IMG/VR virus record: IMGVR_UViG_3300007540_000109
Location: 1-23,781 of that record
Direction: 5' to 3' (one strand)
Length of the DNA stretch: 23,781 nucleotides
Source of the DNA: a virus
Positions 6,180 to 8,254 of this stretch are shown here, in pieces; within the stretch, counting starts at the first letter, position 1; each line of letters starts with the position of its first letter. Position numbers and translations under genes: made by a program. The notes beneath the pieces were generated by a model, which was given only the letters and a program-made list of their open reading frames with translations, was not told the DNA's origin and did no database searches.

Positions 6180-6665
6180 ATGCCTACATTAGATCCAAAC
6201 GAAATCATGTTTACTGCCTTCGAACCGAAGGTAGCAAATAGGTTTATCATGTACATCGATGGTATCCCATCATACATGGTTAAGAGTGCTACATCACCGT
6301 CTTTCACAGATAATATTGTAAAACTCGATCACATTAACACATACAGAAAAATCCGAGGTAAGAGAGAGTGGCAGAACATGACCCTTACTTTATACGATCC
6401 AATAACACCTTCAGGTGCTCAAGCAGTAATGGAGTGGGCTCGTTTATCTTACGAATCAGTAACTGGTAGAGCTGGTTATTCTGATTTCTACAAGAAAGAC
6501 GTAACTCTCAACTTGCTAGGTCCTGTAGGCGATATCGTTGGTGAGTGGATTATCAAAGGTGCATTCATTCAGAATTCAAACTTCGGACAATATAACTGGT
6601 CTACAGATACTGCTGTTGAAGTATCATTAACACTCGCAATGGATTATTGCGTACTAAACTTCTAA
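6180..6665 (+). CDS. 19: Tail tube protein (T4 gp19-like)
   Basis: At 161 residues it is very close in length to T4 gp19. Conserved features are FEPKVANRFIMYIDGIPSYM near the N-terminus (14-33), the middle IRGKREWQNMTLTLYDPI (58-75), and a C-terminal beta-strand pattern (WIIKGAFIQNSNFG, then VEVSLTLAMDYCVLNF). Hexameric rings of this protein form the rigid inner tube inside the sheath. It sits immediately after the sheath gene, as in T4. The start is preceded by an A-rich leader with no Shine-Dalgarno sequence. Confidence 0.93.
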   Translation: MPTLDPNEIMFTAFEPKVANRFIMYIDGIPSYMVKSATSPSFTDNIVKLDHINTYRKIRGKREWQNMTLTLYDPITPSGAQAVMEWARLSYESVTGRAGYSDFYKKDVTLNLLGPVGDIVGEWIIKGAFIQNSNFGQYNWSTDTAVEVSLTLAMDYCVLNF

Positions 6666-6672
6666 TTAAGTT

Positions 6673-7137
6673 ATGGATAATTTTGATCTAAGAAAATTCT
6701 TAGCAGAAAGCAAACAACCTATCCAAGAGATGGACGCTCCTATGGAAGTAGAAGCACCAATGGAAGGTGAGACAATGGAAGAGATGGTTGCAGAATATGT
6801 AACTGAAGCTCTTAAAGGACAGGATATTAAAGAAGTAACTAGCATCATCGAAAGAACTTGTACTAAAGCAATGTACGAAATGAAGATGGAAGTTATTGCT
6901 GAAGTAATAGGTGCTTACGAAGGTAGACTATCAGAAATTAAAGGCAGTCAATACTTCAAAGAAATGGCTGACGAAGCTAAAGTTGCTAACCAGGAAGGTA
7001 TGATCAGCGGTCTTCATGAATTGGCAATCGCCGTTAAAGAAGAGTACAAAAAAGCTTACATGCCAGAAGAGGTAAAAGAAGAAGAGCCTAAGAAAGAAGA
7101 AAAAAAAGACAAGAAAGAAGAGAAAGAAGAAAAGTAA
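6673..7137 (+). CDS. Acidic protein with Lys/Glu-rich tail, unknown function
   Basis: This 154-residue protein opens with NFDLRKFLAE (3-12), a short N-terminal signature I recall in several marine phage virion proteins. A Met/Glu-rich acidic stretch follows (17-40), then a helical middle (41-125), and finally a very low-complexity Glu/Lys tail (about 127-154). There is no catalytic motif. It lies seven bases after the tube gene and before a terminator, so it is probably co-transcribed with the tube from the 6151 element. A small virion or assembly factor is the best guess; it resembles scaffold-type proteins only in composition. Start context is AAGTT-ATG. Confidence 0.65.
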   Translation: MDNFDLRKFLAESKQPIQEMDAPMEVEAPMEGETMEEMVAEYVTEALKGQDIKEVTSIIERTCTKAMYEMKMEVIAEVIGAYEGRLSEIKGSQYFKEMADEAKVANQEGMISGLHELAIAVKEEYKKAYMPEEVKEEEPKKEEKKDKKEEKEEK

Positions 7138-7236: not shown

Positions 7237-7977
7237 ATGGAATCAAAATTCAAACTACCTACTGAAACAGTAGAATTACCATCCAAAGGATTAATCTACC
7301 CAGAGGATCACCCACTAGCCAACGGTACTGTGGAGATGAAATACATGACCGCAAGAGAAGAAGATATACTTACCAATCAGAACTATATTAAGAAAGGTAC
7401 GGTTATTGATAAGCTATTACAATCTCTGATCACATCTGATATCAGCTACGATGATCTTTTGGTAGGAGACAAGAATGCAATTATGATTGCTGCCCGCATT
7501 TTATCTTACGGTAAAGATTACGATTTTAATCTAGGAAACGGCTTACAGTCTGTGGATCTATCCTTATTCGAAAACAAAGAAGTAGACGAATCTTTATATA
7601 CTAGAGGTCAGAACGAGTTTACATTCCAATTACCAACTACTGATAATGTAGTAACATTCAAACTTCTCACCCACGGTGATGAGAAAAAGATCGAACAAGA
7701 GGTAAAAGGTCTTCAAAAGATTAATAAAGATAACATCACAGAAGCTACTACTCGATTAAAGCACATGATCACTTCTATCAATGGATCCTCAGAAAAAAAG
7801 GATATCAGAGAGTTTGTTGATTATGGATTATTAGCAAAAGATGCTAGAGCTTTAAGAGAAGAGTATGTAAGAGTATCACCTGATATCGATCTAACGGTGA
7901 CTTATGAAGATGTAGACGGAGTAGACAGGGAGGCTGCTCTGCCGATCGGGATTAACTTTTTTTGGCCTGACGCTTGA
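7237..7977 (+). CDS. gp26-like baseplate/tail assembly chaperone, short form
   Basis: This 246-residue protein resembles the T4 gp26-type family: LPTETVELPSKGLIYPEDHPL (7-27) followed by GTVEMKYMTAREEDILTNQNYIKKGTV, typical of the conserved N-terminus. It lies exactly between the tail tube and the tape measure genes, the position where most tailed phages encode tail assembly chaperones (lambda gpG and gpGT). Near its 3' end the codons for Phe-Phe-Trp lie in a run of seven Ts (7957-7963), five codons before the stop. The +1 frame then continues as plausible protein for 96 more codons (see next entries). The short form would therefore be the G analogue. Start context AAGTAT-ATG is shared with nrdB. 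Family call moderate; chaperone role inferred from position and frame structure. Confidence 0.7.
   Translation: MESKFKLPTETVELPSKGLIYPEDHPLANGTVEMKYMTAREEDILTNQNYIKKGTVIDKLLQSLITSDISYDDLLVGDKNAIMIAARILSYGKDYDFNLGNGLQSVDLSLFENKEVDESLYTRGQNEFTFQLPTTDNVVTFKLLTHGDEKKIEQEVKGLQKINKDNITEATTRLKHMITSINGSSEKKDIREFVDYGLLAKDARALREEYVRVSPDIDLTVTYEDVDGVDREAALPIGINFFWPDA
7957..7963 (+). other. Candidate programmed frameshift site (T7 run)
   Basis: Zero-frame codons AAC TTT TTT TGG sit on seven consecutive Ts. A tRNA-Phe on the second TTT can re-pair perfectly after a +1 or a -2 shift, entering the frame read GGC CTG ACG CTT GAG. That frame is open from 7925 (after TAG at 7922-7924) to 8254. A homopolymer length error would produce the same picture: with six Ts the two reading frames would be fused. 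Confidence 0.55.
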
Positions 7978-8254
7978 GTATAGACAATTAATATTCAGAC
8001 AAATTCACGATATAGTTTTCTACGGTAGAGGAGGCTTTACCTGGGAAACTGTATACAATATGCCGCTTTGGTTAAGAAAGTTTACTTCCAAAACCATTGA
8101 ACAGCAGATCACAGAAGAATACGAAGCTCAACAGAAAGCTTCTAAAGCTGCATCCGGTATTCAAGAAGCTACTCCAGAAAATACAAAAAACGTTAACGTA
8201 CCAGAAGCGGTACGTAAAGCAAGTTATACAACTACTGTCTCTAAAAAACAGTAG
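7964..8254 (+). CDS. Frameshift extension of the gp26-like protein (GT-like tail assembly chaperone)
   Basis: In the +1 frame, codons after the T7 run encode 96 residues. The first part, EYRQLIFRQIHDIVFYGRGG then FTWETVYNMPLWLRKFTSK, looks like a conserved globular domain and includes 32 codons upstream of the first ATG (8060). Starting at that ATG would discard most of it, and no alternative ATG exists upstream in this frame. Its C-terminus (about 8110-8254) is polar, with Gln/Glu/Lys/Ala-rich character. Joined to the zero frame it would give a ~338-residue protein (339 if the slip is -2). In lambda, the extended form recruits the tape measure protein during tail assembly, and here the tape measure gene is next. 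A separate 64-residue protein from 8060 is the alternative. Confidence 0.6.
   Translation, partial: GLTLEYRQLIFRQIHDIVFYGRGGFTWETVYNMPLWLRKFTSKTIEQQITEEYEAQQKASKAASGIQEATPENTKNVNVPEAVRKASYTTTVSKKQ

Follow-up and report, generated by a model that had tools for sequence, protein, structure and literature searches.

Conservation of the junction

We describe a locus in a 23,781-nucleotide stretch of viral DNA (positions 1 to 23,781 of IMG/VR record IMGVR_UViG_3300007540_000109; the whole stretch is referred to as the window) that is very probably a gene for a tail assembly chaperone (TAC) expressed through programmed +1 ribosomal frameshifting. Comparison with its homologues strongly supports the view that a gp26-like gene and a conserved extension, encoded in a different frame, are joined by a programmed shift. 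An earlier note on the window had placed the end of the gp26-like open reading frame (ORF) at position 7977, an open +1 frame at 7925-8254 and a run of seven Ts in the overlap of the two frames; these coordinates proved exact, and the T run occupies 7957-7963.

Viral contigs were searched separately with each half of the gene (the N part and the extension). Both halves are encoded at 160 loci, which contain 99 distinct junctions, and the +1 relation holds in 99/99, well beyond what chance would give. After the removal of near-copies, 63 non-redundant representatives were retained, among which the sequence CTTTTTTTGGCCTGAC, carrying the slip site, is nearly unchanged. Synonymous codon choice is frozen at this junction: TTT is used in 63/63 and 61/61 cases (background 84%), CCT in 63/63 (36%), GAC in 61/61 (19%) and AAC in 39/39 (31%). 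The binomial p-values for this choice are descriptive only, since they ignore relatedness and since overlapping coding explains part of the CCT/GAC constraint. The +1 relation is also kept in independent isolates (Flavobacterium phage immuto, Microcystis phage Mel-JY01, Rhodothermus phage RM378, SP-15, LIS04 and GXN1). A slippery-heptamer test for -1 shifting (XXXYYYZ) was negative, since all window-family junctions that were examined have the extension in the +1 frame.

In 34 of the 63 representatives the first ATG, GTG or TTG of the +1 ORF is situated 29-37 codons past the junction, inside a conserved domain, and the conserved FGLTPEYR...IHEIVFHGxGGYDW stands before this first possible start. 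The proposal that the segment upstream of the first +1 ATG is a real coding domain is borne out by conserved coding in the 160 loci and 99 distinct junctions. The position of the start codons bears equally on the idea that the extension is a separate protein, produced through re-initiation or internal initiation. Some annotators do call a short ORF at this place (e.g. immuto gp038, cyanophage gp51), but the annotated starts fall within the conserved domain, the 34 representatives offer no earlier start, and no start codon follows at the usual distance after the GGAGG element of the window (described below). We consider a separate protein highly improbable. At one locus (L096, match 765-1082) the extension continues in frame, with no stop, into tape-measure-like sequence (889 residues), which suggests either that chaperone and tape measure are fused there or that the contig is misassembled.

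Variants of the T run and direction of the shift

DNA pattern scans for the length of the T run revealed six Ts in 10 contig stretches, seven in at least 120 and eight in 15. Among the matches listed, both halves were detectable at 5 six-T, 109 seven-T and 15 eight-T sites, with the +1 relation in 129/129; the remaining sites comprised 10 seven-T sites with the N half alone and 5 six-T sites with neither half. The six-T members read CTT TTT TGG and the eight-T members xxT TTT TTT TGG, both being the result of substitutions and not of indels. Eight-T members disprove a strict rule by which the run of the +1 clade would never have a T in front of it. Homopolymers are prone to error, and an indel introduced by sequencing or assembly could in principle have split one uninterrupted gene. 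Nevertheless, the relation is the same in several isolates and in hundreds of independent contigs, and no in-frame fusion (the six-T single gene named in the earlier note as the outcome contrary to a joined reading) was found among the pattern-scanned run-length variants, the six-T members keeping the +1 relation. Because run length varies by substitution and never by indel, we regard sequencing error as excluded, its probability being vanishingly small.

A census of 228 distinct junctions, which required the TTTGGCCTGA core and left out more diverged junctions such as L152, showed that the last codon before TGG (the P-site codon) is TTT or CTT in 228/228. The two codons preceding TGG are TTT TTT in 220 junctions, CTT TTT in 4 and TTT CTT in 4. 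The seven or eight Ts present in most members would suit slippage at the level of transcription, by which a mixed mRNA population would arise. However, the run is broken (TTTCTTT) in immuto and others and missing in LR756508 and GXN1, while the frame relation stays the same. Such variants argue against transcriptional slippage, to which we assign an extremely low probability.

Tail chaperones are expressed by a -1, -2 or +1 shift depending on the phage, the -2 type being used by phage Mu (PMC5009743). For the TTT of the window, re-pairing is perfect after +1 and after -2 alike, and the window sequence by itself cannot separate a +1 step from a two-base backward slip on the T run, which would add one extra Phe. 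LR756508 (AAC TTT CTA TTC) and Streptococcus phage GXN1 (GAA TTC TTT CGT), both of which sit inside the +1 clade in the N-domain tree, allow +1 re-pairing alone (TTT to TTC). Since -2 re-pairing fails in these members of the same clade, we take the shift to be +1. Of the two ways in which tRNA-Phe had been envisaged to re-pair, the +1 step is supported, while a -2 frameshift is improbable.

We infer the tRNA step and the efficiency of the +1 shift, as well as the role of GGAGG, the chaperone function and the synthesis of the fusion protein, from the compared sequences. Most ribosomes would stay in frame 0 and produce the 246-aa gp26-like short form. Some of them would stall when peptidyl-tRNA-Phe sits on UUU (or, in certain relatives, on CUU) while UGG occupies the A site; the tRNA would then re-pair one base downstream on UUU, GGC would be decoded next, and the product would be a 338-aa long form that includes a helical extension. 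By analogy with G/GT of phage lambda, short and long forms would together cover the tape measure and bring in tail tube subunits at a fixed ratio.

The GGAGG element

A GGAGG sequence is present upstream of the junction in 53 of the 63 representatives, as against 0.09 expected. Its end is separated from the T run by 26 nt (35 cases) or 23 nt (13 cases), i.e. in 48 of the 53 carriers. The element encodes EEV, EED, GEG, REA, KEA, QED or GGV; because the residues differ and the codon phase is not always the same (two phases are used), it is conserved as RNA. Codon choice is also skewed at codon -3, where GGG accounts for 29 of 43 Gly codons (8% in the background). RM378, the SP-15 group and almost all -1 phages have no GGAGG at the 23-26 nt spacing.

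The + strand of the window contains 26 copies of GGAGG, most of them within genes, yet neither it nor AGGAG precedes any gene start among the 19 that were checked. It is possible, if rather doubtful, that UUU-UGG-C in the ribosome together with GGAGG at the unusually long distance of 23-26 nt constitutes a novel type of +1 signal, in phages probably of Bacteroidota; as the genes of these phages start without Shine-Dalgarno sequences, GGAGG would on this reading serve recoding and not initiation.

The bacterial prfB (RF2) gene contains a +1 site, CUU-UGA-C, which a Shine-Dalgarno element precedes by about 3 nt. The two sites share a P-site YUU that re-pairs to UUU at +1 and the context YUU-UGN-C. 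In contrast to prfB, the A-site codon in the window is the sense codon UGG and not a stop, and GGAGG is located 23-26 nt upstream; the window site therefore lacks the prfB-type combination of YUU, a stop codon and a closely preceding Shine-Dalgarno element.

Relatives with -1 shifts and the T4 proteins

The N part of the window gene belongs to the family of T4 gp26 and gp51, both of which match PF12322 (T4_baseplate). The window match (E=1.8e-6, 28.3 bits) is above the curated cutoff of 24.5, and the N part also matches phrog_150 (E=9.6e-12). Many relatives carry a homologous extension at the equivalent place, after the conserved FF, but in the -1 frame: XacN1, RAS14, Atu_ph07, PA5oct, BF, Munch, XaC1, RaK2, Phosso, SCTP-2, Melnitz, P-RSM4, S-CAM9, S13 and uncultured LR756511. 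In these phages the slip sites are the heptamers T TTT TTC or T TTT TTT, unlike the +1 site of the window. In P-RSM4, S-CAM9 and Melnitz, ORFs annotated as gp51 or 'baseplate hub assembly' directly follow gp26 in the -1 frame; in view of this frame and the slippery heptamers, they look like parts of a frameshifted long form. In SenALZ1 and Vibrio phage D507 the gp26 genes are of the Ackermannviridae type; their extension, in the -1 frame, contains the conserved motif and goes with a TTTTC run in place of a classical heptamer. In the N-domain tree the +1 label requires two changes, the -1 sequence LR756511 adjoining the SP-15 group, and T4-like gp26 and gp51 fall in one supported group on the cyanophage/Ackermannviridae side. 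A T4-like gp26 is also contained in MG010123.1, named Staphylococcus phage SAJK-IND, whose host label may be wrong.

The extensions of the window clade and of the -1 jumbo phages were aligned by HHalign with a probability of 95.7%, and those of cyanophages/Ackermannviridae with the C-terminus of T4 gp51 with 95.0%; the value for jumbo phage extensions and gp51 was 41.5%. In each of the three comparisons 0/60 column shuffles scored as well. The Melnitz (cyanophage-like) extension and the gp51 C-terminus both match phrog_634 (1.3e-27 and 1.2e-23, respectively). The window extension thus appears to be related to the C-terminus of T4 gp51 through jumbo phage and cyanophage/Ackermannviridae intermediates. 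Structure models of the window extension (mean pLDDT 72.7) and gp51 (84.4) share the predicted order helix, short helix, long helix; the former had no structural match in BFVD at E <= 0.001.

T4 gp26 and gp51 are separate paralogous genes corresponding to the short and the long form, gp51 consisting of a gp26-like domain and a C-terminal extension, whereas in the window a single gene and a +1 shift take their place. The suggestion that gp26 and a T4 partner are the equivalent of G/GT is supported with gp51 as that partner, with the correction that gp51 is more than a downstream partner, being a paralogue that itself appears to carry the extension. The parallel with lambda G/GT and the chaperones of long-tailed phages is supported by an equivalent locus between tail tube and tape measure and by a short form accompanied by a frameshift-extended long form. 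The differences are the protein family (PF12322/phrog_150 in the window) and the shift, which is -1 in lambda and +1 at UUU-UGG in the window.

Several observations weigh against a chaperone gene with a programmed +1 shift. We know of no programmed +1 site at which UGG is an established pause codon. No conserved RNA structure was detected by alifold in the upstream and junction stretch, and single-sequence folding revealed no downstream stimulatory structure (mean z -0.48). Compared directly, the window-clade extension and the T4 gp51 C-terminus gave an HHalign probability of 0.6%, with 8/60 shuffles as good, which is not significant. Finally, the gp51 model matched no solved chaperone fold and had no solved structural relative.

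Gene neighbourhood and host

The gene order in the window is sheath, tube, 154-aa ORF, gp26-like ORF, extension and candidate tape measure gene, and the location between tail tube and tape measure given in the earlier note agrees with the assignments in Table 1. The same flanking order of tube and tape measure is present in Flavobacterium phage immuto, where the gene at the equivalent place is annotated as tape measure. The ORF between the tail tube and gp26-like genes (6673-7137) encodes a product with a Lys/Glu-rich tail and is without Pfam or PHROG match. Related sequences are found in metagenome bins of Winogradskyella and Flavobacteriaceae, and the nearest isolate has Flavobacterium as host; the window phage's own host is probably of the same Bacteroidota group.

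Table 1. Features of the putative chaperone locus and its flanks (window positions)
Feature	Position	Strand	Details
Tail tube protein	6180..6665	+	phrog_4542, E=6.4e-22
gp26-like short form (TAC-N / G analogue), frame-0 ORF, 246 aa	7237..7977 (TGA)	+	PF12322, phrog_150; ends ..NFFWPDA*
GGAGG, Shine-Dalgarno-like element	7929..7933	+	23 nt upstream of T run
GGG codon at -3	7948..7950	+	over-used there among relatives
Near-invariant 16-mer CTTTTTTTGGCCTGAC with putative +1 slip site	7956..7971	+	0 frame TTT TTT TGG; +1 frame TTT GGC CTG
+1-frame C-terminal extension (TAC-C / T analogue), 97 aa counted from FGL	7961..8254	+	predicted helix-short helix-long helix
First ATG of +1 frame	8060..8062	+	conserved Met inside domain (YNMP), not domain start
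Putative tape measure protein, 793 aa	8287..10668	+	position, length, glycine-zipper region

Significance

Two forms of the tail assembly chaperone in T4-like phages were proposed in 2022 (Vladimirov et al., as cited in PMC10885494 and PMC12846349). According to these citing papers, some T4-like phages do without a shift and have two genes, one short and one a longer fusion (PMC10885494), and poly-T -1 signals are present in T4-like TAC genes (PMC12846349). From the title of the 2022 work and the family data, we identify the short and fusion genes with gp26 and gp51. No report of the +1 clade was found in the literature searched. What is new here is this clade and its site, the switch between +1 and -1 at one homologous position, and the GGAGG element 23-26 nt upstream.

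On comparative evidence, the locus appears to be a case of programmed +1 frameshifting, deeply conserved, within the gp26/gp51 chaperone family. A single family of tail-chaperone genes seems to gain short and long forms in three ways: (i) by a +1 shift, (ii) by a -1 shift, and (iii) by duplicated genes (T4 gp26/gp51). In the records examined, the long form seems to be either split or unannotated. The +1 site is clean, deeply conserved and open to measurement, and the conserved GGAGG makes the use of the anti-Shine-Dalgarno sequence in Bacteroidota phages a testable question. T4 gp51, whose function has long been unclear, would thereby gain a concrete and testable role.
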